The notes beneath the pieces are model-generated. The model saw only the letters and a program-made list of their open reading frames with translations. It was not told where the DNA came from and made no database searches. Source: Diphasiastrum complanatum (lineage: Eukaryota; Streptophyta; Lycopodiopsida; Lycopodiales; Lycopodiaceae). From it: a stretch of 64,000 nucleotides of DNA. This document shows positions 5,454 through 60,865 of this stretch, piece by piece (position 1 is the stretch's first letter; each line of letters starts with the position of its first letter). The stretch is from contig MU831891.1 of the NCBI GenBank assembly GCA_029204225.1, forward strand, positions 1-64,000. The letters are read 5' to 3'. The translations under genes and the position numbers were made by a program.

Positions 5454-6132
5454 TGTTAAAAATTCACAATTCTAGCTTGACTAGTTTTGGTCATATGACT
5501 TGTAAATAGTTAGATGGTCATGATGTGGCTTGTCACACGTGCCAAATAGCATAGGATTCCATTCATAAGGATGTTCTCAAGTAGACCTAAGTGTTAGAAC
5601 CTTTGGAATGAGTCCAAATTATGCTTAGATACAAGGGAGAAAAAATAGGAGCTATTTTTGGTAATTTTTGCATTGTTGAGGGATCTCCAAGATTCCAACC
5701 CTAACTTGGTAGGGATGAAAGATCCACCAAAATTAGCATTAGGGATAGGTTTAGGGCTACTCATACCTGCCCAAAACCGTGATGGATCATGTATATATAG
5801 GTGATGATATCTCACCAAAATCAATCAAGCAATTTCATGTTTTTTCTCTCATAATGGTGCAATTGCTCTCTATGTTCATAATTGTTTGAGTACTTGTGAT
5901 TACTAATGATTATAGGATTGAATGTAGGTCTGGTGTACACTCAGACTGTGGGAGGCCGTACTTTCACACGTGTGAAGCCTTCTTCAAGGATTTGGGCCAT
6001 TTAGTGAGGTTCAAGCATAGATTTTTGATGGATTTTGATGGTTCAACTTGTGCTAATCTTATGAAATCATAATCTATTGTTTTCCTCATCATTTCAAGTG
6101 TTTTAGGATCCTTATTTACTGTAATTTTTACA
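5454..6132 (+). repeat. Copia-A 3' LTR (679 bp, complete)
   Basis: Begins TGTTAAAAATTC and ends TTTTTACA. It matches 1-660 almost exactly. After 6132 the sequence passes directly into reverse-strand Copia-B coding sequence. Confidence 0.94.
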
Positions 6133-29939: not shown

Positions 29940-30567
29940 CATAGTTGCACAGAATCGTGTTTCTGGGAGGAGACGTTTCGGAAACCGCGTTTTTGAGAAA
30001 CGTGTTTCTCTTCCCAGAATCGCAAAAAAAAAAAAAAAAATTAATTTATTTTTTTTTTTGGAAAAATTGCTTATGGCTGAAATTTTTTTAGGGGATCAAT
30101 GGTCTCTGGTTTTCAATAAATGCTCAGGGGGTTCGGGGGGCGGTAGCCCCTCGGTGGGGAGTTTGGGGGGCAACGCCCCCCAACGACAGGGTCCGGAGGC
30201 TGCCGGTAGACCCCGGCCTCGATGGTAAGGCCTCTTCATGACTTGGCCTGCCAACTCCCTGAGCAAAAACACACTTACTTGGACCATCTGTGATCGTAAC
30301 AGACATGCTAGAGGTTAGTTTTAATTTTTTTACCCTTAACAAAACCCAACATGGATTAATGCACCTGAATTGGACCATCCTGCACCTGAAACAGTCAGTA
30401 AATTACACAATAATTATGCTCTTAATTAGAGATTTCACCTGATACCCATATTGCACAAAAAAAAAACCAAAAAACAAAAAAAAATTAAAAATAAAGGTTT
30501 CTGAAAAAAAATTCCATATTTCCAAAACGCATTTCTGAATGCGTTTCTGGAACGCAATGCAACTATG
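29940..30567. mobile_element. MITE-like element A with CATAGTTGC terminal inverted repeats
   Basis: The left end CATAGTTGCACAGAATCG is the inverse of the right end (…GCAATGCAACTATG). Subterminal GTTTCTG/CAGAAAC and near-palindromes of AAACGCGTTT lie inside each terminus. The interior has poly-A and poly-T runs (30007-30058) and a GC-rich block (30121-30230). No coding capacity. No clear target duplication was found, so the superfamily is unassigned. Confidence 0.6.
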
Positions 30568-31017
30568 GAACTTTTACTTCCAATCTCAATCATCAAATAA
30601 TATTTCTCAAGAGTAATAATTTCCTATTATTCATCAGAAGTTAAAGCGTATAATTCGTTTTATGCAGTATTATATTTGGAGAATTATAGATTACTACCCA
30701 TCACCGAACCCCATGATTGGAGGCTGGAATTGTTTGATGCTACTTCAATTTTCTTTTCACTATTTGCTTAAAGAAGTCCGTTTTATGGCGTTTTATTTAT
30801 AATCATGATTCTGATTGTTTGCTTATCCCAAGTAAGAAATTGAAGCTTGATATAGTCTACTTGATGATCTTGTTTTTTTTTGTGGTTTTTGCCCTCACAA
30901 AGTGCCAGTTAAATCTACCAAGCCTAAAGAACATCAATTTTGATTATGGCATTCAAAAAAACATCGGTTGACATGTTCCTGCATCTCACATGTTGTTAGC
31001 CCCACCAAAAAATGCAG

Positions 31018-31127
31018 ATCATCTGGAAAAGTCCATCTTCATAAGTCCAGAAACATTCCATTTGACCCTGCTCATGCTTCGACTGCATAGCGAAGAGCGT
31101 ATAAAGGCTGCTGCTGAAGTGCTGCAG
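31018..31127 (+). CDS. ASCC1/LigT-like 2H phosphoesterase, internal exon
   Basis: Encodes KSIFISPETFHLTLLMLRLH followed by EERIKAAAEVLQ. The FHLTL stretch is one of the paired H-x-T/S motifs of the 2H phosphoesterase (LigT/AKAP7-like) fold, and the arrangement matches plant homologues of activating signal cointegrator 1 complex subunit 1. The donor (CAG^GTCAGT at 31127/31128) is in phase with the next exon. The start after TGCAG (31013-31017) is my choice of acceptor and less certain. Earlier exons were not found. Confidence 0.75.
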
Positions 31128-31227
31128 GTCAGTCTTGCAATTGTATCCATGGTACTTGATGTGTGCATTAGTTAAAGACTCTGTGTCCGTGGGACATAAT
31201 TTTGTTGATCGTTCTCAACTTCTGCAG

Positions 31228-31293
31228 AGAGCTTTACCACAAGTTTATTCTGCTTTGGAGGGGCGTTCTGTTGCTATCAATATCAAAGGACTG
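31228..31293 (+). CDS. ASCC1/LigT-like 2H phosphoesterase, following exon
   Basis: A 22-codon exon, RALPQVYSALEGRSVAINIK then GL, between TTCTGCAG^ and ^GTAAAA. Both borders are codon-phase 0 and join cleanly to the previous exon. In plant ASCC1-like proteins the HLTL helix region is followed by a helix of this kind and an 'ALENRPVxIxLKGL'-type strand. The rest of the gene (second HxT motif, C-terminus) was not found downstream in the window. Introns may be long, or the copy may be partial. Confidence 0.75.
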
Positions 31294-31377
31294 GTAAAAT
31301 CTCTCGATTTTTTTCATCCTCGGAATTTTGTGATACAAGAAATTTCCAGTGCATCAACTAAAAAAAATGAATCGAAG

Positions 31378-31694
31378 CATAGTTGCACTCCCATTTCAGA
31401 AACGTGTTTCTCAGCAACTTTTTTTTATTTATTTTTTATTTTTGTGGGCAATATGGGTATCAGATTAAAGCTCTCATTATGGGCATTGCATTTCTATAGG
31501 TTGCCAAGTGTTTTGGTTACAGTTGGGGGTCCAGTTTAGGTGTGGCAATCCTTGTTTAGGCCTAGTTTAGGGCAATTTTAGGGCAAATATAAATGTATAT
31601 ATATGTATTGTTTTTCTTTTTTGGCACGATTCTGCTCCTAGAAACGCGTTTCTGAGAACGTTTTTGCCTAGAAACGCGTTTCTGAGCAACTATG
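31378..31694. mobile_element. MITE-like element B, same family as element A
   Basis: Begins CATAGTTGCACTCCC and ends GAGCAACTATG, the same terminal nonamer in inverse as element A. Two perfect AAACGCGTTTCTGAG copies lie near the right end (31640-31690). It sits in the intron after the 22-codon ASCC1-like exon. 317 bp, no coding potential. Confidence 0.6.
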
Positions 31695-32958
31695 AAATTT
31701 ATGAAAGGTAGATTTGCACTATTACTCCTTAACTTAGAATCTCTCCCAGAATAGTCCCACATGTAAAGGCTTTTTTTTTTTCCCAACTGGCCATCGTTTT
31801 CTGGATATATAGAGGGGCCATGAGACTTATGAACATGACAACCTAATTTCTCTCTAAAGAAGGGCTTTGAGTTTTCAGCCTGAATTGCTGAATCCATCCT
31901 CCTTGATTTGCTGACACTGAAACAGCAATAGAAGACAGGTGCTATGATATTGAAAAGGCAAGATAGTGTTTGAAAATGAAGTTTTACAAATTTAATCAAT
32001 GAGATGACAAATGTTGCTTTTTCTTTAACGTTTCTTACATTGGGGCTCTATTGGAAGATCATGCAATATGTTTAGTGTGTTGAAGCAGGTCTTGGTTCTG
32101 CTCAATACAGGATTTGACATGTTACTTTGGGGTCAGTTGTCTCTCTATTTTGTAAGCTTGTCATCCAAACGATAAGTCTTGTTTTTGGACAACTAAATAA
32201 TGTTATAGTGCATCAGTAAGCAGAGATCTGAAAGTAAGATATGCGTGGCTGAGGATATTATGATGTGTTGTCACCCGGTGCTTTATTTGTTTGAATGCCT
32301 TGAGTATATGATTTTGATAAGGATCCAGTTTGGCTACACAATCCACTGTGACAAACCAAAATCATTCAAGTACATATGTCACCTTTGGGTGGGATGTGAA
32401 AGTTATCGGAGCTTTTGTATACTCTGCTCGTTTGTTGGTTTCATTTTGAGTCTTTTGTGTGCTTTTTGAGACTGCCTCAACAGAAGGGCTCCTCTGTAGG
32501 GGATCACTACCAGGGAGTCTAATGGTCAGTGATTCCCTGTTTTCTTTTCAGAGAGTCATCAATTTTTTGGACTCACCGTTTTTCCCACATATTCTTGATG
32601 CTCATTGCTCTGCTTTATCATGTTGACAATCTTATGAATCATTGTTGCTTCTCTAACTCAGTCCATGAATGCCATATTTTTATAGTCTATGTGTTGACGT
32701 TTTGCTACCAGCTCCTAGTATTTTGCACTTTTATCCCATCAATTCATTTTGGTGAATGGCAAAGAGCAAACTGAATTTGATGCGGTGATCAAGGCTCAGG
32801 AAGATGAGTAGATGAAATGTTAGTGAGCTTGCATAGAGATATTGCACCTTATAAAGGCTTGCACCAGGTGAGCCCTATGCAGGTCCGATTACAATACACT
32901 TGCATTTATTAGCGCTTTAGCATTCAACATTATCATTAAATATACATGAGAGATGTTC

Positions 32959-32960
<2 letters not shown>
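31695..32960. other. Presumed intron or intergenic DNA
   Basis: No exon of the ASCC1-like gene or other coding motif could be identified here. Confidence 0.4.
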
Positions 32961-33038
<78 letters not shown>

Positions 33039-33050
33039 AAGAAAGAAAGT
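32961..33050 (+). repeat. Compound microsatellite (TG)n(GA)n(GAAA)n
   Basis: About 14 TG units, then about 21 GA units, then about four GAAA units. Open frames reading VCVCV and REREREK are artefacts of this repeat. Confidence 0.97.
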
Positions 33051-33180
33051 AATGTCTTTTCCATGCCAAAAGGCATATAAGACTGGAGAGGTAGTACAAC
33101 AGAGTAAATGGAACTCGGACGGAGCAGTGCCGTCAACAGAAAACTAGACTAAAACTAAAACGTAAATCGCTATGTAAAAG

Positions 33181-34090
<910 letters not shown>

Positions 34091-34864
34091 TGGGCCCAAG
34101 TTTCGTAAAATATAACTGAGCTGATGGTTCACTATGTGACTTTAATGCTTTGGATCCTTCATTGCCTCTTGACATCTCAGCAGCTGTCCATGCCATTATT
34201 GAATCACTTTAGTTTTGTTTGCTTGTTTGTCGGTAATAGGAGTTGCTTGCATTATTGGGCACCTTGAGTTCCGAGGATTGAATAAGCTTCAACTTTACCC
34301 TCTCACAGGTTGCCTTCCAAGATCAATTTCGTAAAGGTCAACTTAAATAAAAGCCATCATCCTGTCAGGGCATGTTCTGCTTCTGCTGCTTCTTAGTCAA
34401 AATCCTCTGCTGCCGTCTTTGACCTCCCTGAGAATATTTTTTTGCATGTTTTCCTTGTATTGAGCACCAAGAATGCTTGTTGCTTTTATTGTTTCTATCA
34501 ATATTTCTAGTTTCTTCATTATTCCTTGCACCCTATGAGCAGTGTTGGTACATGCAACTTAGTTGTGGGCATTGTACCAGCAAGAAATGTTGATAGGCGA
34601 TTTTTTTCTTATTGGGTATGTTTACATGTCCTAAGTACTTTCAGGAACTCATGAAGAGAAAATCAAATGCAAAGATTTGGGAGGAATTATTCAAATAATA
34701 GAGTAATCATGATACAAGATTTGTAAAAACTCTCATAAATATCAATATATTTCTCATTTTTTGAGAATGTACATGTGCGTCCTGTATTTTACAATGGATG
34801 CTTTTGCCCATAATTATTCCCAGGGCATTACATCAAAAATGTATATCTCTATTTAATCTATTAT

Positions 34865-35239
34865 TTACAGCTCAAAGTAATATGGATTATCTCCAGCCTG
34901 CACTAGTGTCAGTTGTGGACTTGATTGCCCTCTCGTTTCCGCAGCTGGACTGGGTCTTCCATGAGATAATAAGTTCACCAACATTTCTTGACGAAACTCA
35001 TATATCTCATTCATTGTAAATGCTCGACATTTATACTGCAAATCCAAAATAGTCGAGTCAATCGACTTATCAGAAATGAAATCCAAAATAATCGAAAGTA
35101 ACTTAGTTAGGCCATTAACTAGTCTATTTACCTCTCGTATATCTGGAGCCTCGGATTGCATGATGTACCACTCTAAGAAGTTCTGTATATTGCAGATGGA
35201 GAACCATCCACAGCTGTGTCCATCATCTTGTTGAGCTGA
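34865..35239 (-). CDS. Ulp1/C48-like protease, last exon (catalytic Cys)
   Basis: Starts after acceptor TTGAAG^TCAGCT and ends at a stop near 34865. It encodes SAQQDDGHSCGWFSICNIQN, the Q-x-n-CG motif of Ulp1/SENP-type cysteine proteases (oxyanion Gln and catalytic Cys), then FLEWYIMQSEAPDIREV and a helical C-terminus. Codon phase matches the preceding exon (DAT^SAQQ). The exon has no internal stop. It is the 3' end of the composite gene starting at 36699. Confidence 0.75.
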   Translation of the reverse strand, partial: SAQQDDGHSCGWFSICNIQNFLEWYIMQSEAPDIREVNRLVNGLTKLLSIILDFISDKSIDSTILDLQYKCRAFTMNEIYEFRQEMLVNLLSHGRPSPAAETRGQSSPQLTLVQAGDNPYYFEL

Positions 35240-35329
35240 CTTCAATCACAAAAGGTATAATAGGTTAGTTGTGCACTCTGAAAAAAACAAATCAAATTAC
35301 TTATCAAATACTTGATGAGAAATACTTAC

Positions 35330-35522
35330 TGTTGCATCAACAATCTCCAAGTGGCTATTTACAGTGGCCCCATCCAGCCTTGGCAAAAATTGCATAATTT
35401 TGTTGTACATGATGTCCATTTCGGCATGGGTGGAGCTCAAGGAATTAATCTTTAAACAGATGGGATTAATGATCCCATCTGAATCTTCCCTAAGGGAGAT
35501 TACATGCATACTCCAATGCTTA
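35330..35522 (-). CDS. Ulp1/C48-like protease, middle exon (catalytic His)
   Basis: Lies between acceptor GTTTGTAG^ and donor GCAACA^GTAAGT. It encodes KHWSMHVISL, the H-W motif holding the catalytic His, and INSLSSTH where Ulp1 proteases have a D-S-L with the catalytic Asp. Here Asn replaces Asp (AAT at 35444-35446), one G-to-A from Asp. The fold is otherwise well kept, with helix MDIMYNKIMQFL after it. The enzyme may be impaired, or may use Asn as some cysteine proteases do. Confidence 0.72.
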
Positions 35523-35610
35523 CTACAAACAAGAGATAATTAGTTAGACTGAAGGAATTACAATACCTAAAACAAAATGTTACTTGAATATATTCTATGT
35601 AATCACTTAC

Positions 35611-36036
35611 TTTTGGCAGTATGAAACATTGAAGACTTTGGTCTCCGAAGTTGTATGGACAAGATACTTCGTCGCCTGAGTTGGACTATGAAGGCTGTGT
35701 GCAAAATAGGACATCACAACCCCAATGTCTTTACTATTATCGCATTTACATCTATTTACAAAATACATCAAACCGGCCTCCACAACTGGATCTGATATAT
35801 CTGATGTCTTATCTTTCAGGGCATCACAAAATTCTTTATTTATGTGATTTACATAATTAATTGAACTTAGACAAAAAGAAAATTGACCTCCTAACTTATC
35901 TATTTCTTTGGCAACATACTCATCAAAAACTATATATCTCTCGGAATCCAAAAATGAATCTTTCGGATCAACATGAAATCTTACACAAAGAACTTTATAA
36001 AAATCACCTATTAAACTCTTATGTAGATCCGATATT
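35611..36036 (-). CDS. Ulp1/C48-like protease, N-terminal exon
   Basis: Open from about 36036 (KIISDLHKSLIGDFYKVLCV) to donor CCAAAA^GTAAGT at 35611/35610. It leaves two bases of a codon completed by the first base of the next exon, so the splice is phase-consistent. It contains the leading helices of the protease (SERYIVFDEYVAKEID, EFCDALKDK). Upstream, a single-base disruption near 36040-36048 separates this frame from the Ser/Pro linker of the histone-like segment. Confidence 0.65.
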
Positions 36037-36048
36037 ATTTTACCTTAC

Positions 36049-36699
36049 AATAGAGGTCATATCCTCATCATTGTGGGATGGAATGGAGGGAATGGAGGAG
36101 GAACTACTTGAATAGTCAGGGGTGGTGGGAGGAGAAGAACGCTGGGTAGACTGGAGTGATGGTCCAACCACAGGACGAGAGATAGGAGGGGGGGATGGTG
36201 ACTGAGTACTACCCTTTGTCTAGCAGGCCTGGTGGGCTTGGTTTGCTTTTTCCTTCTTCATTCAGGAACATGCCCTCTCTCTGTAGGTGGTGGCCTACAG
36301 GTGAAGCCACTCTTAAAAACCTGATCGTATGTACTCCTCAGCCTCATGACAAGATGCATGTCCTGAGGCATGAGCGTAACTCTCTTGGCATGCACAGTGC
36401 AAAGAATAGAGTTCTCATAGAATTTAACCTGAAAGTCCTCATAGGCAGTATGGAGGGCTTCCAAGGCTGTTATGTTCCAGTGAACATCATGTGAGAGTGA
36501 CCTTGTCACTAACCTCACAGACCTGTAGAAAGGAGCATGGAGAATCAGGAGATTCGTTGTCCTCTATAGTCTCCTGATATCCCTTAGCCATGGTCTTCTC
36601 GGACGACCTGCTCTCCTACCAGTGCCCACTGCCCTTCCTATAGGAGGACGAGGAGGCAGCGCAAAATAGTAAGACGGGTGTCTGCTTGGTACGAGCCAT
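36049..36699 (-). pseudogene. Divergent histone-H3-like domain plus Pro/Ser linker, joined to Ulp1-like exons
   Basis: ATG at 36699 gives MARTKQT, the exact canonical H3 N-terminus. After a one-base shift the frame reads a basic tail (GTGRRAGRPRRPWLRDIRRL), then TAG (36564-36566) where H3 has Gln. A histone fold follows: the alpha-1 helix TNLLILHAPFYRSVRLV; loop 1 of H3 length (SHDVHWN); the alpha-2 segment ALEALHTAYEDFQVKFYENS; then ILCTVHAKRVTLMPQDMHLV. The last stretch strongly resembles the H3 sequence around CAIHAKRVTIMPKDI. A TGA (36258-36260), a basic patch (RRKKQTKP), a C7 run frameshift (36188-36194) and a Ser/Pro linker lead into the Ulp1-like exons. Sequence is far from core H3, so it is a diverged, captured or decayed H3 rather than a host nucleosomal gene. 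Confidence 0.72.
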
Positions 36700-36941
36700 T
36701 TCAAGCTATGGTATCGCTATGACGCGCCCAACAGATAGAACAATGGGTATCGGTGACAGGAGGCGCGTGATGGCGATATAGGAGATGGTGTATCGCTACA
36801 ACGCGCGGAGAGAAAAGTGCTATGAGAATATGAGTGATTGGGCACATGGTAGCGATATGCGGATAGCGACAACAAAAACTAGGAGGAGAGGAGCGCTAGG
36901 GAACCAAGAAATCAGAAATTAAAAAATGAGTCAAAAACGTT

Positions 36942-36949
36942 CTTTTATA
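36942..36949 (-). promoter_or_regulatory. TATA box of the H3-Ulp1-like gene
   Basis: TATAAAAG on the minus strand, about 245 bp upstream of the MARTKQT ATG and just downstream of the CACGTG cluster. Confidence 0.55.
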
Positions 36950-36975
36950 CCTGTTGAATGTCGTAATCATTGTCA

Positions 36976-37243
36976 CACGTGTGATGCGACATGTACCTTT
37001 TACCGCACGTGTGGTGACACATGTCAACGTATGGATCACACACACGTCAGGGCATAACTGGTCCGTACAATCGTATGGCTAGCTTGCACGTGCGAGGATA
37101 TGTGTTATGATCTGGTCCACACACGTGTCATGGGATAACTAGTCCGTACAATCGTATGGTTGGCTTGCATGTGCAAGGAAACATGTCATGATCTAGTCCA
37201 TACACGTGTCATGTAATGATTTGGCCATCGTTTTCCACACGTG
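36976..37243 (-). promoter_or_regulatory. Cluster of six G-boxes (CACGTG) in an 81-bp tandem duplication
   Basis: CACGTG occurs at 36976, 37006, 37087, 37122, 37203 and 37238. Two 81-bp units start at about 37052 and 37133 (GTCCGTACAATCGTATGG in both). CACGTG is the core site of plant bHLH and bZIP factors. The position, immediately 5' of the TATA box, suggests a regulated promoter. Confidence 0.55.
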
Positions 37244-37259
37244 TGGCTATTTTGACCGC

Positions 37260-38460
37260 ACGCTTCCAAAACATGGGTACGGTTCAGATCCTCTGAAAGA
37301 AAAGAAAAATTTAAGGCATAGAGTGAATGAAATGAGCGGCAACTATGCCAATGTTGTACTTTCAGTTCTTCTCTAAGTTCTACTATGGCAGTCTCCCATC
37401 TAGTAAAAATACTAAAATCTAGCAAGATCAGACCAATTAGATGATTACAATTCTGTAAACTGGTTTGCATGTGTTAGAAAAAGAGTTGTATGTCATGAAT
37501 TTTCACTTTATTGTGATGAAAAAACTGGAAAATAGTCAAAAATCATCATTTTTGCTTGTTTTTTCATAAAGTTGGATAGTAGGTGGCTGTAAAACACCAT
37601 GTAGAGCTTGTAAAGAGGTGGATCAAAGTCTTTTGAATCTTTCCTTGAATTTAGAACCAAGAATTCCAGCAATTGAACTTGTAGGAAGTCAAAAAAGTTC
37701 AAAAAATGACTATTTTTGGTGATTTTTGGGGGATGGATCTCTCCAAATCCATAAGGAGATCATTCTGAAATTATTTACAACATGATTAGCATTTCTTTTT
37801 ACCTTTCTATCAAGCTATCAGACCTGTAAAATGATGGCCGCTGGCTTATGCATAATCTCCATCAAGTTTTAAGCTATTTTGACTTCTACAAATTAAAAAT
37901 CTTTGTTCTCAGCCTATACTGCATCTTAGGATCTACATGAATGCTTCATGGAAGTCTAATTGATTGTTTAAGACTGTTCGTAGCATCAATTTTGGGCTAG
38001 GATGGGTATTTGCACGTTTTTGCATGATTTTGTCTTGTGGAAATGCGCCCCTACTATAGATTTTATGACACTCTAATCTCGCACACGTGAAGCCTAGGTG
38101 GTAGGCTGATGTGACAAGCATCTTGTTCACCTAATCTTCCTCTGTACTGAGCTTTACAACACCCAATTTGGTGTCTTGTAGCCAAAGTTATGATCATCTG
38201 AAGTTTGGCAGTTTTAATTAGAATATATATAAGAATGTCGTTTTCCGAATTAAGTTTCGCATATCAAGTCTAGCAAACCGACCTGCTCCAAAATCAAAGC
38301 ACACTATATCACTACCACACGCCCAACAAACGTCTCTACAGTACCACTGCTCTCTTGGCACGTAATTTCGATATTCGAAATTCTGTAGCCTGTATATCAC
38401 CATTATGCTCCGTGGACTACATCCTTTAGTTCCCCTTGCTAATTGGCGCCTCATAATGAT
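37260..38460. other. Non-coding spacer between divergent gene remnants
   Basis: No coding motif recognised. It lies between the minus-strand H3-Ulp1-like gene and the plus-strand gene remnant, so it may hold both promoters. Confidence 0.45.
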
Positions 38461-39647
38461 ATGGCTTCCTCGTCTACCAGTTCAATCTATGATAGAGCGT
38501 TTAGTTCTTTCCTTGTTGATGTTGGGGTCAGGCTCATTTTTTGTCCTATTTCGATTTTCAGTTTGACATAGAGAGATTTGTCATTGAGCACAGGGAAGTT
38601 TTTCCCAAACTGTAAAAGGATTTTTATGACTGCTTGCAACAGGGTACCCTTTTGATGGACGGCCTAAGATTTGTGCATTTCACAGATTTGAGTCATGCTC
38701 AGCCTAGTGCCAAGCAAAGGCATGATCGTAAGTTTACCAAACTTATCTATCTGTTTAAACGTGTCATACCCTGTGAGGGACACAATCGTGTATGTCGCTT
38801 CGTTCAGGAGGGTATGGCCTTTGTGTTTTTCATATCTGCTCTTATCCCTGACGAGGCAAAATCTTCTTAGTCATCCATGATTGGTTTGCCTACCCCTACC
38901 ACTCTTGTAGCTTCGGAGGTTTCTACTACTGATGAGGTTCTAGGAGATGTAGAGGAGGCCAGACAAGCACAACAATATGATCCTGCCAAGGCTCGTTCTT
39001 TTTCTATCTCTCCCTTATCTATCGTAAGTGAGATTGACTAGAGCAGAACTCTAATGGACATCCCTATGTACCATATGGACGATATTCCATTCTAATCCAT
39101 TAGCGATATCGGAGACGGAATGGATCTTAGAGAAGATGAGATATGATCTCTTATGTCAAGAATGATTTCTGAATTTAATGATTTTATTGACTTTGATGAT
39201 GACGACCTCATAGATGGCATCGACTATGAGGACCAAGAAGAATGGGCAAGTGGCACAGATGCCCTTCAAAGGATGCTATATGAGAGCAAGACATATGAGG
39301 CTAATATGTCGAGTGAGGAGGAGTTTTTGGCTTTTCAAAAAAAGTATCCGCCAGCTCACATATATACTATTCCAACTGACCAGCAATCGACCATTATTGT
39401 TGGTCACAATTTAGAAGCTGCTGGTGTGATCCAAGCTGACAAGGAGAATTTTGTAAGTACATTGTCTCACAAAAATCATTTACTATTTAATGTGTAACTG
39501 ATGATTGATCTGCTAGTTTGACTAACACTTGATTATGTGTTGTAGGAAATCGTTGAAGTTGATGCCTTTGCTAGCAAGCATGGAGGATTGAGAGAGAGAC
39601 AAGGCAGGAGACAGAAGGATGTCTCATTGGCTCATTACTTGAGATAG
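38461..39647 (+). pseudogene. Decayed unknown gene with acidic C-terminus
   Basis: ATG at 38461 (MASSSTSSIYDRAFSSFLVD) is followed by a frameshift near 38560. The reading is then one continuous frame to a splice donor (GAATTTT^GTAAGT near 39450) and a second exon (39546-39647, EIVEVDAFASKHGG … SLAHYLR-stop). The main frame has five stops (about 38611, 38868, 39040, 39094, 39146). Segments: basic/aromatic (FTKLIYLFKRVIPCEGHNRV), Thr/Ser-rich, then strongly acidic (FNDFIDFDDDDLIDGIDYED). I do not recognise the family. Its placement between the two minus-strand genes suggests it belonged to the same mobile element. Confidence 0.5.
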
Positions 39648-40065
39648 TTTGTAAATAATGAAATTTGTATTTTTCATGAAAGGTTTTTTGTGAATGCGGG
39701 AACCTTAATCATGGCCATTAAGGCCCTACCTTTTTTGCCCAGGGGCATAAATATCCAAAAAATACATATAAAATCATTTTTTTGTCAAAAGAGATGTTGC
39801 TCTTAAAGTGTTCAATTACGTGCCAGAAAATGTTCCTATGAGATCATATGCTCTGGCAACTCTATCAGGATATATAGATCTGAGAAAAAGGACATCCACT
39901 CGATTTTTAGATCCGTATGATAGGAAAAAGTTCCTTCATGACCACACAACAAAAATTGTCCTTAGAGACAATGCAAAAAAATGATTGTACTCTTTTCCAT
40001 TTAATGTATGTTAAATTTGAGAATTTTTTATCACACGCGTTTGATCTTTATTGAATGCCATCAAT
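39648..40065. other. Spacer between the unknown gene and the transposase-like gene
   Basis: No coding feature recognised. It lies between the 3' ends of convergent gene remnants. Confidence 0.4.
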
Positions 40066-41510
40066 CTAGTTTTGGCTTATAAATTTACATACTTTTTTGA
40101 ATCTTTGATATTCAGTTGATCTTGTTGTGTATCGAACTTGAGTCTGTCTATAAAACCATTGGAATAGCTGAATGATGTAACTATTTTTTGAGGATGTTCC
40201 ACCATGTTGTGTATTTTGCTGAAATGCTGCTCTTGCCTGCCAATGTGATTTCTCCATTCTTTGTGAGGACCATATACTCAAACTGCCATACTTTTTTGCA
40301 AAAAATGATACATGATGCCTTAGTATGTGCTACAATATCAAAGATTTATGCATTGGTTAGAAACATATGCATTTAGAATCTATCAAGCAAGTTATACTAA
40401 AACTATAAAATTGTAAGACATTGTTCAAATGTATCCTACCATGTAGTGGGTGATGTGATCTGAGCCCCAAGCCACCTGAACTGCATCTACAAACTCTATT
40501 GTTGTTTTCTCCAGTAGGAGTGCATCTGAATATGAAATTGTGTCTTTTCTAAGCACTTCAACCATATTATCGAGCTTTTTCCAAACTTCAACCTTCTTTG
40601 CCCTTGTTGTTCCTTTATCTTCAAAGTCTTGTGTTGCAGAAATAACATCTTTCCAAACCGAGTCTTGGATCTTAGATGACTGTTTAGAATGATTTGATAA
40701 AAATCGACGAGCTTTGACTCCTCCTATGCTAGGTTTACTGGGTACATTTCCTGTTTTTTCCGAAAGATTTTCATCTTTTTGTATTTTAGCATGTCCTTTA
40801 TGAAGGCCCACTTTTGACAACACTTCCTCTAATCGAGCTATTGCTTGTTTTGATGCTAACTCTGGCTTAGTATTCCATGCAAACAACATATGAGAGTATA
40901 TTAATTTCTCTATGATCCTCACCTCTCCATGAAGTGTGCAAATATGAACATTCTGTAAAGGAATTGGTAATACTGGTTTCCAGTTGGGATCTTCAATATC
41001 TCTTGAAACTCTTGTGCTCCTTGAAATGTCACTTGATGATTTCATACAATATAGACATGGATGTTTCGAATTTGCTCCATGAGATACATTGAACAGACAT
41101 TTCAATGACTTCAAGTCTCCAACTAAATGCCATTCCACAAAAAATTCACCTCAGTCAGGAACATTAAGTACTTTGTCGTTCATATGATCCTTTATGGTAT
41201 CTGGATAACTTGTTCTGCTAAAAATCCAGGAAAGAACATCGTGATCCTCTTTGATAACCTGTCCAACATATGGAATCACAAGTTTTTATATATTCAAAAC
41301 ATTTACCAAAAGAAATTGCACATGAATAACACCATATGTTGTTTTCTGATTGCACACTGAAGTTGAGATCCCTTGAGTTTGTTGCATTGTTCAATGTTCC
41401 ATTCATGAGAGTAATACTTACTCTTTCCAACTTTTGTCCTTTTATAACTTTCGATTCATCTAGCTTGACCTCCAGAATAAGTTTGCTCATACTAACACTT
41501 GTAATATTAT
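40066..41510 (-). pseudogene. Transposase-like gene remnant
   Basis: Minus-strand segments in order: [15 protein letters not shown] at about 41480; VIPYVGQVIKEDHDVLSW near 41250; then VEWHLVGDLKSLKCLFNVSH and SKHPCLYCMKSS (237-codon frame 40425-41138, a 'DLK … C-x2-C' layout); Lys-rich helices; SDHITHYMVG; and after an intron or gap SIWSSQRMEKSHWQARAAF and NTQHGG (40066-40290). A DLK…CxxC core followed by HY-x-H and a 'Q-x-EKSH' C-terminus recalls transposon-derived proteins found across eukaryotes, but I cannot name the superfamily. One in-frame TGA and frameshifts are present. The 5' part is cut by Gypsy-B at about 41537. Confidence 0.5.
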
Positions 41511-41536
41511 AGAATTTTTAATTACATTAAAAGTAA

Positions 41537-42437
41537 AAAAATTGAACAAGGAAACCGTTAAGAATAGATATCCACTACAACAGATGGATGACCTAATAGA
41601 TTATCTTGGTGGTGCTGGGTACTTTACCAAGATAGATCTAAGGTCCGGATTAAACATGCATTAAGGCAGAAGATATATCAAAAATTGGGTTTTGAACTCA
41701 CTTTGGTCACTACGAATTTTTAGTGTTGCCTTTTGGTTTGACCAATGCACAGACAACTTTCCAATAGATGATGAACGATTTGTTCAGGCCATATTTGGTA
41801 AGATTCGTAGTGGTATTCTTAGATGATATCTTAGTGTTCAGTAAGACTTTGGCGGAACATAAATAGCATCTTAGGATTGTTTGGGACATCCTAAGAAGGG
41901 AAAAGCTCTAGGCCAAAGAGTCTATGTGTGACTTTTTTTGCAAAGGAATTGTCTTACTTGGGGCATAAGATTTCCAAACGAGGGGTGGAGATCGAGGCCG
42001 ATCGTATCCAGAGGGTTATTGAGTGGTCTATTCTCACCACAGTTCAGGAAATCAAGGCTTTCTTGGGGTTTGTAGGATTTTTCCATCGGCATATTTTCCA
42101 ATTTGCTCGATTGGCATTTTCCCTTACCCAGGCCTTGAAAGGCTATAAGAAGCTAAGCCGGATGGCTAAGAGTCCACTAGTGGTGTGGACGGAGGATATG
42201 AACAATTGTCTTGAGTTGCTTAAAAAAAGTGTCACTTCGGCACAAATAATAATCATTGGCGATTCTAATAAGGCTTTTGTGATTAGGACTGATGCCAGTG
42301 ATTATGCTATTGGAGCTATTTTGATGCATGATGGATATCCTATTGCTTTTGAAAGCAAGAAACTCAATCCTGCTCAGTCTAGGTATTGTACTTATGAGAA
42401 GGAACTGTTTGCAACTGTTAATTCCTTGAAAATTTGA
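41537..42437 (+). pseudogene. Gypsy-B RT and RNase H (N-terminal part)
   Basis: 41560-41930 holds RT in broken frames ([33 protein letters not shown] with both catalytic Asp codons intact at 41822-41827). 41928-42437 is open: ELSYLGHKISKRGVEIEADR, GFVGFFHRHI, then RNase H RTDASDYAIGAILMHDG. It ends at TGA next to the H-Y motif. Confidence 0.9.
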
Positions 42438-42446
42438 CGACATTAT

Positions 42447-43512
42447 TTGTATGGAGCCAGATTTGAAATTTTGACAGATCATCAAACTCTTCGATATTTC
42501 TGTGATGCTACAGATCTAAAGGGGAGGCAAGCTAGATGGGTTGAGTTGATGCAAATCTTTGACTTTTCTATATGTTATAGTAAAGGAAGTCAAAATACTC
42601 TAGCGGATGCTTTGAGTAGGTTACCGGTTATTAATCAGTTGTGCTTTACTGTTATAGATCCGAGGTTGTTTCAATCTCTTCAAGGACTATATGAGTTCGA
42701 TCTTTTTTTTGGAAAGTATTGGCAACAAGTACTTTCGGGGGTCGATTCAGATTTTGCAAGATTTTTCAAATCGGGGGAAGACTGAAACGGATTTTCTTAT
42801 TCGAAACAGGATTTTGTTTCGGTGTGTCTACCAAAAAATGACACTATAAGTGGCCAAATCTTGCATGAGTGTCATGATAGTCCATGCGCATGACATCCGA
42901 GTATACAAAAACACCTGAATTAGTTCGAAGGCAATTTTGGTGGCCTAAGATGAAAAGTCAGGTAGAGGCCTATGTACTTAAATGTACTAAGTGCCAGATA
43001 AATAAAGCAGAGAGACTAAAAGCCAGTGGCCCATTACATCCTTAGATATTCCTACCAGAAAGTGGGAAAGTATATCTATGGATTTTGTGGTCAAGCTTCC
43101 ACGTACAGGGAAGGGCCACGATTCAGTTTGGGTCACTGTTGACAGCCTTACAAAGTTTGCTCAATTTATCCCAACAAAAACTACTGTTAAAGCTTCAGAA
43201 CTAGCTCAACTATTTTTTGAGAAGCTTTTTTGACTATACGAGCTACCTTGCAATATTGTCAATGACCGTGATCCAAAATTCACTGGGAATTTTTGGCAAG
43301 CAGTATTTGAAAAGCTGGAAACAACTTTAAGTATGGGTTCTACAGATCATCCAGAATCAGACGGTCAAACATAAAGGACCAATCAGACGATGGAGGATAT
43401 GCTTCGAGCATATGTAGGCCATCGACAGTCTGCTGATTGAAAACAATATCTTCCACTGGTCAAATTTGTATATAATAGTGCAAAACATTCAGCGACCGGA
43501 TTCAGTCCCTTC
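42447..43512 (+). pseudogene. Gypsy-B RNase H end and integrase core
   Basis: 42447-42785 encodes ILTDHQTLRYFCDATDL and NTLADALSRL. Downstream the integrase is readable only across many stops: HECHDSPCA, ISMDFVVKLPRTGKGHDS (first Asp), VNDRDPKFTGNFWQ, and HPESDGQT followed by a stop in the Glu motif region. This copy documents what Gypsy-A deleted. Confidence 0.87.
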
Positions 43513-44119
43513 ATGCTTATGCATGGTTTTCAACCTCGATCACCAATTAGTGTTGACATGAAAAACCTACGGGTGCAAGTCGCAGCTGATTTCCTTGCGG
43601 ATATGCAAAAAATGTTACAACTGGCTAAAGATAGCATAAGAAGTGCCCAGGATAGGGCAACGCACTATGCCGATCTATCTCGAAGGCACAAGGTATTCAT
43701 GGTCAACGACTGGGTATTTTTGCGAGTCCCTAGTCACTCTAGGGGCTTGAAAACTGGTAAGTGTGCAAAGTTGGTGCCTAGGTATTGCGGTCCTTTTAAG
43801 GTTATCCAAGTGATAAACAAGGTCGCATACAAACTAGACCTTCCAGCTAATGTTGGAATTCATCATGTTTTTCACGTTAGTAAGTTAAAACCCTCGTTAG
43901 GGGTTGGGGAGACCCTGCTCTATGTGGAAGATCTAGTGGAACTTCTTCATGATGAGTCTGCGAGTGGACCACCTGAACCTGAGACGATTGTTAATAGCCG
44001 GCCGACAGAGGACTCTACGGAGTAGAGTGCTTCAAGAATTTTAGGTAGGTGGAAGGGCAAATCAGAAGAGGAGGATACCTAAGAAAAGGAGGCTGATCTC
44101 CAGAAGAAATTTAAGTTTA
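43513..44119 (+). pseudogene. Gypsy-B integrase C-terminus and chromodomain
   Basis: 170 open codons from [14 protein letters not shown] through the GPY/F module ([19 protein letters not shown]) and [14 protein letters not shown]. After a stop at 44025 the chromodomain remains (WKGKSEEEDT, then a stop, EKEADLQ) up to the PPT. Confidence 0.88.
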
Positions 44120-44130
44120 GGGAGAAGGAA
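44120..44130 (+). other. Gypsy-B polypurine tract
   Basis: GGGAGAAGGAA directly before the LTR TG at 44131. Confidence 0.87.
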
Positions 44131-45104
44131 TGTTACATACCTATGTAACTAGCAGTACTTCAGTGACCCCTATAAGTCCATTTAGTGTTGGGGGCTAAAT
44201 GGCAAGTTACCCTTACGATTAAGGGTATGTTCCCTTATTGGATAAGGGCAGGTAAGTGATTGTACCTTGGTCGGAGGTATGGAGTCAATGACCCATTGGA
44301 TAATGGGTACCCTTAGGATTAAGGGTAGGTACCTTAGATTAAGGTACTAGTGTCCTTGGATAAGGGCAGGTAGGTGTTTATGCCTTAGATGGAGGTATGG
44401 AACCTAGAGAGGTATTAGAAAGTCATTGGATGACTTTTTTTCTAAACCTTGGGCCTCAACCTTGAACCATATCACTTTATTGGTCTTGGACCAAAGTATA
44501 CTTGCACAACTTGGGCAATGGGTCCTATTAGGAGGGCACCCTCCTAAAGGGTCCATTGAGTTTCAAGTTTCACAAGAATAGCAATCAAAGAGTCATAAGT
44601 TATGGAAGATGTCTGATGACCTTCCATAAGCCTATGAAGACTCTTGAACTCCTCTAGGCCACTCTCTTTCTCATTGGATGTACATGGAACTCCATAGTGT
44701 ATTAGAGAGAACTAAATGCCATCTATATAAGAGGAGTAGGGCGCCCATTGGGAGGGAGAGAGATCTCTTTTGCTTGCTTCACTTATGCTCTAGTGTGGCT
44801 ACTAGTGTGTAGAGTAATTTCTTGTGTGTAGCATGCTGAGGGTTTGGATCTTACTTATGGTATGGGACATAAGTAGAGTTTGGATCTTGAGTATGCTATG
44901 GATTGTTGTGGTATGCTTGTGATTTGTTTATGGTTAGCAAGGGGGTGCTAGATAGGTCTTGCTTGGAGCTTGGATCTAGCTATGGTTGGGTGGTGAATAC
45001 TTGAGGCCAGCTTGTTATCTTCCTTTGTGTTTAAGAGTAGGGACACATGTGGAGGAGAGAGTGGAGGAGAGATCCTTGGAGGCTTGCAGATCCTTACTTG
45101 CAGG
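44131..45104 (+). repeat. Gypsy-B 3' LTR, truncated
   Basis: Starts TGTTACATACC and matches the Gypsy-A LTRs up to CCTTACTTGCAGG at 45104. About 110 bp of the LTR 3' end are missing, so the right side was cut or replaced. It carries a short tandem duplication near 45050-45075 (GTGGAGGAGAGA). Confidence 0.9.
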
Positions 45105-48660: not shown

Positions 48661-50409
48661 CATCCATATTGAGTCCTATGAGGTGTTGACACATGTCATA
48701 AAGTGTAGAAGTGCAAAATTGCAAGTGGTGCACCATTGGTCAAAAACTCATCACATTGACTTTTGAGGTTCAATCAAATTTTGAGGTACAAATCATGGGT
48801 CCAATCATTTTTAGAGGTCACCACAAGTAGGAACTTGAGCTACCAGTATATGGATGTCGACTATCATTGTACTTTCAAAATTTTTGAGAGATGCTTTTGT
48901 TTTGAGTCAAATGCTCTTATTGTACTCTCTCTCTCTCTACTTGAGGGCTCGTCTTTTATCTCTCTACAAGAGAGTAGGATGTGTTTATGACTCTAAAACC
49001 TTGTGTGAGACTTAGTTTTTTCATGAATGTGCATTAAAAATGGCTTGTCTTTGATTGATGATTACTTTTTGTGTACAAGAGCTCTTGCCTAGATCCAGAT
49101 CTTGTTTGATAGCTCATTAAAATCCGAGTTGATCAAGATAGATTTGGTAGTGTGCAACCTCTCATGCATGTAGGTCGTGGTAGATCTATTCAAGGTCCTC
49201 AAAACTCACTTTTTTGACATTTGATGATTTACACTTTGTTTAGATTGTTCTTGCTTACATATCAAGATTGTGTCATTTCTAACTTTGTAAATTAATAGAA
49301 ATGAAGATAGTAATGCAACAAATCCCTTTTGTGGATTGAATGAATCCATTTATGCTCCTAAATGTCATAAATTTCACATCAAAGTTGAAGTTAAGAACTT
49401 ATATATATTTTTATAGTGAATTGCAAACTATACATTGTACAGAATTATTAACCATAAATATGGTGCAAGCATAAATGGTAGCATCAAGAAGAAAAAAGTT
49501 TTATTCTAATAATTTACATTGACAAATTTTGTCATTCGACGTGGCATTCCTTTTAGAGTCTTCTTTGAATTCATAACCTCTCTAATGCATAGATCACCTT
49601 GATAAATCAAGACCAAACTTCTTAGTCCTCATATCAAGGTTGAACATAGGTATATTACTCATCATTTGACTTAATACAGTAAAAAAAACCATAAAAACAA
49701 ACTAACCTTGGAGCATCAAACGAATGTCTATCACCATAAGACCACAACAAACTGCATGAGTTAGTAATATGAGAAAGATAGGTGTCATGATCGGAAGCCA
49801 ATTGTTATCTAGGTCAAAAACATATTTGTTCAAAATGCTTAACATACAAGTATTGATTGATATTTAATACTCCATGCCATTACATAATCTTAAAAGAAGG
49901 TCAAGGATGTAAGAATATCCACCGTACTGACTCGTATTAACTTCCTTGATAGAATCGTTTTATTAGGAATGTTTGTATGTAAAAAACTCAAAGATTCGTG
50001 TTACATGTGTAGATAAATTACCAAGTCCACAATGCAATAGTGTATGGTAAAAGATGTCGAAGTGTTTATACACCATGCAAACCATGTTTATCAACCATAC
50101 AATTTTCTATCAAGGCATTCACCATATCAATCCAACTACACTTGTTTAAAGAATATGTTTAGTTTGATGTGTCTATTCTTCTAAATGAAAACTGGCTATT
50201 TGTAATAAAAAAAAAATCTATATATGTTCATGAGTTTGATTTAACATTGTCATGAGTTCATCACAAAACATTTTCACACCCAATTGAGGTTTTCTAAATC
50301 GGTGGAAAAATTGGGGTTGGGGCTGGGGTGGGGGGGGGGGTGGGGAGAAGGTTTGTGTTTATCTCAAAAGTACTCTATGTTATACATAAAAAATTGTTGG
50401 CCATCGCTT
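48661..50409. other. AT-rich intergenic DNA
   Basis: No coding or RNA feature recognised. A G10 run at 50331-50340 precedes the tandem array. Confidence 0.45.
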
Positions 50410-51717
50410 GCATAACTTTGTACAAGTCAAAATGCCATCATCATCGAACCACATCAACATAGTTGTTGTAATGCAATTGAGTCCATTGTGACAGATGCCA
50501 TGTTTCCACAATACTCACTCACATATCTCATTCCAAATCCAAGTATGGATTGTGAAACTGACAAATTCATAGCCCATTAGAGTGGTTACCATAATTAAGG
50601 CATCTCATTCAGGCTACTTCCAATGTATATCCCAAGAACTCCTATGCAACCCGTGTTTAGTTTTAGCACAATATGGGTGAATTATCCACTATATTATACT
50701 TTATCTATTATAATTAAAATATTAGTATTCCCGGGCCGCTCACGCTGCCTAGGCCGCGCTCACGCTGTGACGGGGAGCGTGAGCGCTGTCCGGGACCCTT
50801 TTTTTTGTAATTTTTTCATGTTTTTTTTGGGGCAACACTCACGCTGCATAACTTTGTACAAGTCAAAATGCCATCATCATCGAACCACATCAACATAGTT
50901 GTTGTAATGCAATTGAATCCATTGTGACAGATGCCATGTTTCCACAACACTCACTCACATATCTCATTCCAAATCCAAGTATGGATTGTAATACTGACAA
51001 ATTCATAGCCCATTAGAGTGGTTACCATAATTAAGGCATCTCATTCAGGCTACTTCCAATGTATATCCCAAGAACTCCTATGCAACCCATATTTAGTTTT
51101 AGCACAATATGGGTGAATTATCCACTATATTAGACTTTATCTATTATAATTAAAATATTAGCGTTCTCGGGCCGCTCACGCTGCCCAGACGGCGCTCACG
51201 CTGTGACGGGGAGCGTGAGCGCTGCCTGGGACCCTTTTTTTTAAAATTTTTTCATGTTTTTTTTGGGGCAGCACTCACGCTGCATAACTTTGTACAAGTC
51301 AAAATGCCATCATCATCGAACCACATCAACATAGTTGTTGTAATGCAATTGAATCCATTGTGACAGATGCCATGTTTCCACAATACTCACTCACATATCT
51401 CATTCCAAATCCAAGTATGGATTGTGAAACTGACAAATTCATAGCCCATTAGAGTGGTTACCATAATTAAGGCATCTCATTCAGGCTACTTCCAATGTAT
51501 ATCCCAAGAACTCCTATGCAACCCGTATTTAGTTTTAGCACAATATGGGTGAATTATCCACTATATTAGACTTTATCTATTATAATTAAAATATTAGCGT
51601 TCCCGGGCCGCTCACGCTGCCCAGGCAGCGCTCACGCTGTGACGGCGAGCGTGAGCGCTGTCCGGGACCCTTTTTTTAAAAAAAAATTTCATGTTTTTTT
51701 TGGGGCAGCGGTCGCGC
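50410..51717 (+). repeat. Tandem array of three 436-bp units with GC-rich hairpin
   Basis: GCATAACTTTGTACAAGTC starts units at 50410, 50846 and 51282, exactly 436 bp apart. Units are nearly identical. Each holds an AT-rich body and a GC-rich end with CTCACGCTG repeated and a perfect 11-bp inverted repeat GCGCTCACGCT / AGCGTGAGCGC with a 9-nt loop (50756-50786, 51192-51222, 51628-51658). A fourth unit does not follow. Non-coding. Confidence 0.95.
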
Positions 51718-54656: not shown

Positions 54657-55607
54657 TTAGCTCCATGTTGATCCACCGAGCAGAATAACGTCTTCAGTAC
54701 TTGTATCTTTGGTACGACTAGAATACCCCACTTCCTCAGCTTTTCCACTTGTGTCACCATACAAATCTCTTAGCTTCTTAAGATTGTTAATTGAAACATT
54801 ACTAGTGTCCCTTGATGGAGCTGGACTCACGGAGCGCCGCCCAGTACTTGGGCTTTGTTTTGAGGGGCTGTGACTATGGCTACGACTTCGGCTTCGGTGG
54901 TGACCATGATATCTACTCCTTTCAGAAGCTCGATCCTTCTCAAGACTTCGATCCCCGACTCTTTCACGCTCTCTTTCTCTGTCTCTGTATCTATCCCGTC
55001 CCCTTTCAGTTGCCTTATCGCTGTCCCTGTACCTATCATGAGCACTACCTCTACTACTTTCTCTCTCACGATCCCTACCTCTTTCTCTGCTGCCTTCACG
55101 GTGATGATCCCTTCCCTTACCTCTAAGCCTTTCCCTCTCTCGCTCCCTGTCCCTTTCATATTCTCGATCCCTTTCTCTTATTCTTTCTGAATCACGGGAT
55201 CGCTCCCTTTCCCTATCTCTTTCCTTGGCTCGGTCACGATCCTTCAACCTCTCCCTTTCGCGATCTCTATCTCTTTCTTCGATTCTGTCCCTCTCATCCC
55301 TATCACTAGCCTTCAATGGTCGCCGTTCATCAACCCCATTTCTCCGCATATCACTACCAGGAGGAATACTTCGTCTAACAGGTGAAGAGTCCCGAGTTGA
55401 TGCTCTATGGGGAGCACGCTGACCAAAAGATACTGAGAGAGAAGCTTTCACCGAGGGAGGTCGCCGAGCTGCATCATCTGATGCATGACGACCACCAGTT
55501 CCTGTGACTCCAGCTGGCTGAGTAGGAAGCTTCATCCTTTCTAAGTTTGCAGTTATTTGTCTTAACACTGGCACAGGAATCCTTGGAAACAATGTATCAA
55601 AATAGTA
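54657..55607 (-). CDS. PRP38/SRL1-type pre-mRNA splicing factor, terminal exon
   Basis: Begins after acceptor TTTATGCAG^TAC (exon base 55607) and ends with TAA at 54657-54659; 316 residues. It opens with YYFDTLFPRIPVPVLRQI, the end of the PRP38 domain, then the RRPPSVKASLSVSFGQRAPH block characteristic of plant PRP38-family SRL1 proteins. A long RS/RD/RE-rich region (RERERERD-type, ~190 residues) follows, then SRSRSHSHSPSKQSP and the conserved tail KKLRDLYGD … VILLGGSTWS. PRP38 proteins join the tri-snRNP / B-complex and help spliceosome activation in the nucleus. The exon is free of lesions, so the gene is probably functional. Opposite-strand frames here are shadows. Confidence 0.92.
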   Translation of the reverse strand, partial: YYFDTLFPRIPVPVLRQITANLERMKLPTQPAGVTGTGGRHASDDAARRPPSVKASLSVSFGQRAPHRASTRDSSPVRRSIPPGSDMRRNGVDERRPLKASDRDERDRIEERDRDRERERLKDRDRAKERDRERERSRDSERIRERDREYERDRERERERLRGKGRDHHREGSRERGRDRERESSRGSAHDRYRDSDKATERGRDRYRDRERERERVGDRSLEKDRASERSRYHGHHRSRSRSHSHSPSKQSPSTGRRSVSPAPSRDTSNVSINNLKKLRDLYGDTSGKAEEVGYSSRTKDTSTEDVILLGGSTWS

Positions 55608-57086
55608 CTGCATAAAGAGTCAGAAAGCAACAAACAAGAATCAGAATGCTTTACAAATCGTAAGTTTGATACTTACTAGAAATTCAGGAAGATATAGATA
55701 AATAAAAGGAGATGGAAGAGTTCAAGACATTGTAAGTTTGCTTTATAGCTTATCAAAGCAGGACGTTTCAATCATGAAGAGATATCTCATGAACTTTCTT
55801 GCAATTCTAGAAAATTCCTACAACATAAAGTGCCAAAAAGAGTAACTAGAGAACATTGTTCTGGTCTTGTGAAAATGAAAAAGCATTTACAAAGATTTCA
55901 GGTGATCCTCAAGCTATAAAATATGAGTTAGCTCTCTAAAACACAGACATTGGATAGAAAGGTAAAGCTTGACAATCATTTGTAATGCAAAGATTTCAAC
56001 AAAAGGTATCACTCTAAGCTCTTGTTGCAGACTGTTTGAAACTATCACTGTTTTAAGCATTCAATTGATGTCTTTCAACCTATCTGCAGAAAAATAAACT
56101 GCAGAAAGACGATCATATGTTTGCAAAAATCAGCACACTGTAACTGCACCATTATCAAAAGGTACCGAAACAACGTAGTACGCTAAAGGGATATAAATTT
56201 TGAAACAATGCAGCCCACCAGGATATGAATTTTGAAGCCTCCGTAGAAAAAGAACGAACTTGTTGGACATCTACTCGTGATCGAGCTCCAAAGAAACCGA
56301 CATCAGTGTATTCAGTAGTGAATGTCCATAAATGTACATGTGTTAGGTCAAAGTTGCAACCTAGACTTTGCAACCTAGTGAAAGGTTTCAGACATCATCA
56401 TGAAGCTGGAAGATTTTGAACGAATAACTAATTGTAATGTTGAAATCAGCAAATGATTAATCCCAATAATTCTTACTTTTAGGAGAGCCTCGGACCTCAA
56501 GGCTAGACCAGCCAAATAGGAGGACATGTCTCTAAAAGAAAAGCAGAAAGCGGATGCTGAAGCGTAGCATGATTATTGATGTGGCCACATACAAGTTTGC
56601 ATGCAGAGCAAAAAAGTTAGCCTTGCACCTTTGGGAAAATCATATACATCTTGCCATATCCTGAGATCAGCATGACATATTTCCCCAAAATTTAGAATGT
56701 TAAACAACTGCAGCATGAGACAAAATCTAAAGAAAAAGAGAACTGCCCAATACAAACACCAGTGTTGATCTCTTTGATGTCCAGATTAGTGCTATCAGCA
56801 TAAAAAACCAGCATCAAAGAGATTCCTAAGAATATTGACTCAAAACAAGAAGAGTACCACACAAAATCTAGGTGATCTACTTCAAACCTTTGAGAGAAAA
56901 TAGAATGATACTAAAACAACATTTGCCTGATTTGATCTTGGACTTACTAAAACTAAATCACAAAGCACTGAATTGTGCATTGGGTTTTGTTCTTGACCTA
57001 ATCAATGCACCAAGTACAGCAATACATCAATGCACAAACAGTTTGCTAGTATATTACAGAACATAATTAAGTCGGAAATAGCCCAC
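55608..57086 (-). other. Intron of the PRP38-like gene (1479 bp)
   Basis: GT at 57086-57085 and AG at 55609-55608 on the minus strand; phase 0. No further features seen inside. Confidence 0.85.
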
Positions 57087-60488: not shown

Positions 60489-60506
60489 CAAGCGAGAGAG
60501 GTAGCT

Positions 60507-60746
60507 GTCACTTTTGGAAATAACAAGCGAGAGAGGTAGCCGTGTCAAAGGCATGTATGTATCAAGAGGGCTGTCCTGTTGCATATGGCTAAGAAGTGAG
60601 TGGAGGGTATGTGAGCAGTGAGCACTGTCACTTTTGGAAATAACAAGCGAGAGAGGTAGCCGTGTCAAAGGCATGTATGTATCAAGAGGGCTGTCCTGTT
60701 GCATATGGCTAAGAAGTGAGTGGAGGGTATGTGAGCAGTGAGCACT
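60507..60746 (+). repeat. Exact 120-bp tandem duplication
   Basis: 60507-60626 and 60627-60746 appear identical, starting TGTCACTTTTGGAAATAACA. A partial extra copy of AACAAGCGAGAGAGGTAGC sits at 60486-60505. Confidence 0.93.
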
Positions 60747-60865
60747 GTATACGTAACTACTCTCCACTCACTTCTTAGCCATATGCAACAGGACAGCCCT
60801 CTTGATACATACATGCCTTTTGACACAGCTACCTCTCTCGCTTGTTATTTCCAAAAGTGACAGCA
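60641..60865. repeat. Near-perfect palindrome (~105-bp arms)
   Basis: 60641-60746 is inverted at 60757-60865 with a ~10-bp centre. The outer ends read AACAAGCGAGAGAGGTAGC and its complement. Confidence 0.9.

Follow-up and report, generated by a model that had tools for sequence, protein, structure and literature searches.

Protease domains of the Ulp1 type and genes for H3-like histones have each been described on mobile elements. Ulp1 domains are carried by VANDAL/KIU elements, and a review gives the precise function of such transposon-borne domains as unknown (PMC13317346). CACTA-ULP elements are plant DNA transposons that combine Tnp2 with ULP1 (according to passages of PMC2528002), and a fungal hAT element, from Pyrenophora tritici-repentis, contains an H3-like gene, H3L (according to the main text of PMC3538342). 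These precedents cover one half each, Ulp1 elements or an H3-like hAT gene, never joined, so that a fusion of the two has separate precedents only. A protein joining H3 with Ulp1/C48 was named in no title or abstract opening that we found in the open-access literature.

We analyzed a window of 64,000 nucleotides of the clubmoss Diphasiastrum complanatum (contig MU831891.1, positions 1 to 64,000), in which an H3-like part (36699-36258, minus strand) is followed on the same strand by a Ser/Pro-rich linker and a Ulp1/C48-like protease part (36219-34865; Table 1). Both domains, their order and their shared strand had been proposed in an earlier note made from the DNA letters alone, and were borne out by a Pfam histone match and by a PF02902 match in the joined exons. 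The histone half at this locus carries breaks and the protease half looks unbroken; at most the linker-protease half could therefore still be expressed. The locus is most likely either a decayed transposon-like fusion or a tandem gene pair.

Among the described systems, the KIU/VANC genes of the VANDAL elements (non-TIR Mutator-like) resemble the locus in having a transposon-borne Ulp1 domain beside other genes. The targets of VANC anti-silencing proteins often form tandem repeats, according to passages of PMC5735166, and an 81-bp tandem repeat lies upstream of the H3-like gene here. The VANDAL system differs in that the word histone is absent from the main text of PMC13317346, and no MULE transposase was found among the neighbouring remnants scanned here. 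CACTA-ULP elements offer the likeness of a Ulp1 domain in a plant DNA transposon (passages of PMC2528002), but at the clubmoss locus no Tnp2 was found among the neighbouring ORFs scanned and no CACTA-type ends among the 40 best repeat pairs viewed. The H3L element resembles the locus in that a diverged H3-like protein has been amplified within a DNA transposon; it differs in being fungal, in having a hAT transposase and TIRs, and in a main text that is without Ulp1 or protease (PMC3538342). The chimeric protein discussed in that text consists of the central ORF and the transposase, not of H3L.

Table 1. Features of the H3-like/Ulp1-like locus, in the direction of transcription (positions in the window).
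Feature	Position	Strand	Basis or remark
Tandem repeat with a unit of 81 bp (2.2 copies) and CACGTG motifs; lies before the H3-like start	37037..37213	.	
TATA box TATAAAA	36943..36949	-	sole pattern match on the minus strand from 37300 down to 35036
H3-like N-terminal part	36564..36699	-	MARTKQT in one frame, GRRAGRPRRPWLRDIRRL in another, TAG at 36566-36564; comparison with P0001
H3-like histone fold and extension TYDQVFKSGFTCRPPPTERGHVPE, closed by TGA 36260-36258	36258..36563	-	Pfam, structure prediction, alignment with P0001
Junction; the H3 frame gives the basic patch RRKKQTKPTRPARQR; shift to the linker frame, closed by TAG 36222-36220	36220..36257	-	
Ser/Pro-rich linker with one open frame; candidate exon, donor AAG/GTAAAA, contains ATG 36060	36044..36219	-	
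Candidate GT-AG intron of 178 nt, in phase, with a GC content of 0.29; may instead be coding, as the downstream frame is open here	35866..36043	-	
Protease exon ending in YCQ and a split codon	35611..35865	-	
Protease exon; contains the catalytic His in KHW, and LKINSL with Asn in the usual Asp place (by eye)	35330..35522	-	
Protease exon; contains the Gln and the catalytic Cys, in QQDDGHSCGW	35132..35239	-	
Final protease exon, DNPYYFEL then stop	34865..35035	-	

The H3-like half and its relative

The MARTKQT start read in the earlier note is present, its ATG lying at 36699, and its frame runs for 27 residues to a stop. GRRAGRPRRPWLRDIRRL is read in a second frame; the TAG comes next, and an open frame of 101 residues then runs to the TGA. 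The H3 tail is thus not intact in this copy: MARTKQT is there, but a frame change and the TAG precede the fold. The fold was also recovered as had been claimed, as a diverged H3. The Pfam histone family PF00125 matched ORF 36563-36258 with 63.6 bits (E 2.8e-17, cut-off 26.4), and H3.3 was the best match among the sequences of solved structures (59.3 bits). Structure prediction of the 101-residue ORF gave helices at residues 9-20, 31-60 and 66-86 (mean pLDDT 76.2, pTM 0.51), and the best 50 of 112 Foldseek matches to this model (E <=0.001) were all titled as nucleosome or histone assemblies, with a modest fit in these best 50 of 112 (query TM-scores 0.54-0.57, rmsd 5.5-5.9). From the Pfam score, the H3.3 match, the predicted three-helix fold and the Foldseek titles, the H3 part is real, far beyond chance. 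Beyond the locus itself, a search for other copies within the 64-kb window gave short matches only, with E 5 or worse.

A protein search with the H3-like frame returned one match from one candidate, the D. complanatum hypothetical protein O6H91_14G014700 (137 residues), here called P0001. The H3-like part and P0001 are identical at 55 of 92 aligned positions (60%). They have in common the MARTKQT start, the same histone region and an extension, TYDxxFKxGFT, past the usual H3 end; 8 of the 11 residues of this extension are the same in the locus and in P0001, so that coding ran past the usual H3 end in both. P0001 differs in being an unbroken histone-only model, which runs from MARTKQT to GFT and ends in the extension, without a protease in the annotated model. 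Its loop 1 is also longer, by four residues, and the H3-length loop 1 of the locus, put forward in the earlier note, is therefore not typical of the family. A comparison of P0001 with viral contigs gave 17 pattern matches, none of them confirmed. Even without a fusion, the locus and P0001 point to a diverged clubmoss H3-like family with its own C-terminal extension, which likewise is named in no title or abstract opening found in the open-access literature.

The protease half, the linker and the intron model

The protease domain was recognized across exons: single protease ORFs scanned apart gave no PF02902 match, and the joined protease exons matched this family with 22.9 bits (E 8.4e-5, cut-off 20.7), from the His to beyond the Cys. 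Shuffled controls of the same 301 residues gave PF02902 in none of four cases. At the active site, the His (KHW) and the Gln and Cys (QQDDGHSC) are present, which agrees with the HW and QxxxxxxCG motifs reported earlier, and a visual comparison with yeast Ulp1 puts an Asn (KINSL) in the usual place of the Asp, a position taken by Asn or Glu in other proteases of clan CE. The HW and the Q-x5-C active-site spacing are those of yeast Ulp1 and resemble the Ulp1/SENP SUMO proteases (MEROPS C48), from which the locus differs in its weak sequence similarity (yeast Ulp1, E 0.38) and in the Asn for the catalytic Asp. A protein search for relatives of the protease half found none among 357 candidates (E up to 10). 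With similarity to solved proteases this weak, the absence of relatives among these candidates points to a diverged protease for which no close kin were found. The protease of an intact ancestor may have been active, with SUMO as its putative target.

The three downstream exons and the frame ending at 35611 are joined in phase by GT-AG introns (Table 1). Three Ulp1-like exons had been counted before; the introns and their phase held, and the number is raised to four, or to five with the linker exon. If 36043-35866 is taken as an intron, the break at about 36040 disappears, and 36219-34865 becomes one open, lesion-free frame of 300 codons over five exons, which matched PF02902 with 22.2 bits, above the cut-off of 20.7. 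The candidate intron has the donor AAG/GTAAAA, 12 of 14 pyrimidines before its AG (versus 11, 10 and 9 in the other three acceptors) and a GC content of 0.29, compared with 0.26-0.32 in the other introns and 0.36-0.45 in the protease exons. In the downstream frame no stop interrupts its 59 codons, as is the case in 0.4% of resampled sequences (1.2% for any frame), and the full open run of 144 codons (36044-35611) was reached in none of 5000 resamples, the longest being 139; given this rarity, the stretch may instead be an exon, with the break at 36040.

The Ser/Pro linker of the earlier note is found in an open frame, 36219-36044, which has no stops and a codon score of -2.3 bits; the remaining two frames contain 2 and 5 stops and score -11.1 and -12.8 bits. 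Codon statistics are weak at telling exons from introns, as one open frame of the intron 35131-35036 reached 5.5 bits, which exceeds the score of every exon in its coding frame, and the gene model accordingly leans on composition and splice signals.

Toward the histone half, the H3 ORF and the ORF starting at 36044 are in the same frame (36563-36044 = 519), with three stops between them; by way of the Ser/Pro frame, the H3 part is separated from the linker by one stop (TGA 36260-36258) and one frame change, and the linker frame opens 38 nt after the H3 ORF stop. Four lesions were counted, all in the first 480 nt (the histone half and the junction) and none in the following 903 coding nt, a placement with a chance of 0.015 under uniform decay, which suggests that the two halves had different fates. 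The earlier estimate of two stops and about three frameshifts between the H3 part and one continuous protein is revised to four lesions, the break at 36040 being possibly an intron. The possibility that an intron spans both the TGA and the frame change between H3 part and linker was rejected: in a scan of donors from 36335 to 36263 with an intron length of at least 60 nt, the six frame-keeping GT-AG choices all had a GC content of 0.49-0.53, which sets them apart from the other introns, and four started inside the extension, which is coding in P0001.

One polypeptide or neighbouring genes

The reading that we prefer, tentatively and short of confidence, is that of an ancestral single polypeptide in which an H3-like histone was connected through the Ser/Pro linker to a Ulp1-like protease, the present locus being a decayed copy, probably within a transposon-like cluster. 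That histone and protease were once one polypeptide we infer from their adjacency, their strand and the position of the TATA box: a match at 36949 precedes the H3 start, and none lies between this start and 35036. The ORF starting at 36044 has no in-frame ATG in its first 92 codons, the first being codon 93. A conserved extension of the histone family would also be as expected of a fused protein. On the side of separate genes stand the histone-only P0001, the ATG at 36060, a weak poly(A)-signal variant (AATGAA at 36262) and the TGA with its frame change. The apparent fusion of the earlier note is supported in part. Intact paralogues with both domains were searched for as well: P0001 was found, as a histone-only protein, and none of the matches of three protein searches contained both domains (one match from one candidate, 7 from 6117 and none from 357). 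The 7 matches from 6117 candidates, obtained with a two-domain query, each had a Pfam histone label and none a C48 label; six were 137-181 residues long, and one, from Anaeramoeba, 302.

Possible, if marginally more doubtful, is that a decayed histone-only gene and a separate, open protease gene were neighbours in one mobile element and were never fused. P0001, as a 137-residue histone-only model, is what such a histone gene would look like, and the stand-alone, transposon-borne H3-like gene of a fungus is a precedent (main text of PMC3538342). At the junction, a stop and a frame change separate the halves, the lesions are confined to the histone half and the junction, and the AATGAA, located where the H3 ORF closes, could terminate a transcript of the histone alone. 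The linker frame contains a single in-frame ATG, at 36060, from which a protease-only protein (MTSIV) could start and continue into the protease exons under the intron model. However, with a start at 36060 there is no explanation for the Ser/Pro-rich frame being open from 36219 onward, no TATA-box match was found between 36699 and 35036, and the extension beyond H3 that is common to P0001 would need another reason.

Rather unlikely is a chance juxtaposition, in which insertion or rearrangement placed an H3-like pseudogene beside an unrelated Ulp1-like gene of a transposon, the true 5' exons of this gene being lost or elsewhere. Repeated retrotransposon-like pieces crowd the neighbourhood, the two halves are unequally decayed, and no relative that would show the usual upstream partner of the protease half was found among the 357 candidates; against this, both parts are on one strand with the open linker frame following the H3 ORF so closely, and that frame continues into the protease exons under the intron model.

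The histone part might, under any of these readings, be a captured CENH3, which would aim the protein at centromeres; this we regard as improbable. A W in loop 1 and RVTLM occur as in Arabidopsis CENH3, P0001 has the longer loop 1 and LIP..AF-like positions, and the CENH3 of A. lyrata was among the 7 matches of the two-domain protein search. The sites that separate Arabidopsis CENH3 from H3 are mixed, however, with 10 CENH3-like, 8 H3-like and 24 neither in the locus, and 10, 13 and 23, respectively, in P0001. In a tree of 11 rows, five of them entered by hand and none a lycophyte CENH3, the locus and P0001 formed a pair (100/99) with a stem of 0.88, which lay outside the clade of angiosperm CENH3 (91/96).

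If the preferred reading of a single ancestral polypeptide is followed, the H3-like part of the intact protein would pair with H4 and enter or mark chromatin, the linker would tether the protease there, and the protease would strip SUMO, or a different substrate of Ulp1, from silencing proteins in the element's surroundings and so keep the element expressed. An anti-silencing role of the ancestor is what this scheme implies. A chromatin-anchored deSUMOylase on a transposon is thus a reasonable hypothesis; the fuller version, that a lycophyte mobile element encoded a single protein with H3 in front and Ulp1 behind, a nucleosome-inserted protease acting against the element's own silencing and perhaps guided to the upstream tandem repeats, is on the unlikely side. 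Should intact fused copies exist, they would represent an enzyme whose tether is the histone of which it forms a part, and would open a route to test what transposon-borne Ulp1 domains do.

Probable mobile-element context and neighbourhood

A mobile element around the locus is likely. No convincing terminal inverted repeats were seen among the 40 best pairs viewed between 30001-34880 and 36701-45000; the best rows matched at 15 of 20 positions, with a 4-bp direct repeat, and at 16 of 20, with a 2-bp direct repeat, raw scores from a comparison that would miss non-TIR elements. As for a transposase, two joined neighbouring remnants matched no Pfam family at E up to 10, and single ORFs gave matches below cut-off only.

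One of these remnants, decayed and of two exons, runs from an ATG at 38461 to 39647 on the plus strand, divergent to the H3-like gene, with a GT-AG intron at 39453-39545, an acidic middle part, the end ...VSLAHYLR before the stop, and no Pfam match. The other, on the minus strand (41517-40066), has an intron donor at 40439, a next exon from 40329 and the motif CLYC; its 324-residue joined part had no Pfam match at E up to 10, and by its motifs we take it to resemble a DNA-transposon protein or transposase.

The window as a whole is rich in retrotransposon-like pieces and repeated copies, with frames recognized by eye that are presumably of the Copia and Gypsy types. At its start, direct repeats (1-661 and 5476-6133, 98.5% identical) flank an unbroken, Copia-like ORF of 1290 codons (1472-5344), and the whole is probably a young retrotransposon. 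Further along, a unit of 436 bp is present in three copies at 50409-51707 (96% matches). An open frame of 320 codons on the minus strand, 54657-55619, is rich in Arg, Glu, Asp and Ser and has a weak Pfam match to PRP38_assoc (E 3.4e-4; 21.6 bits, under the cut-off of 25); it may be a host gene for a splicing factor. At 58369-59096 and 59765-60491 lie inverted copies of about 728 bp (98% alike), adjoined at 60504-60864 by 120-bp repeats with an inverted copy.
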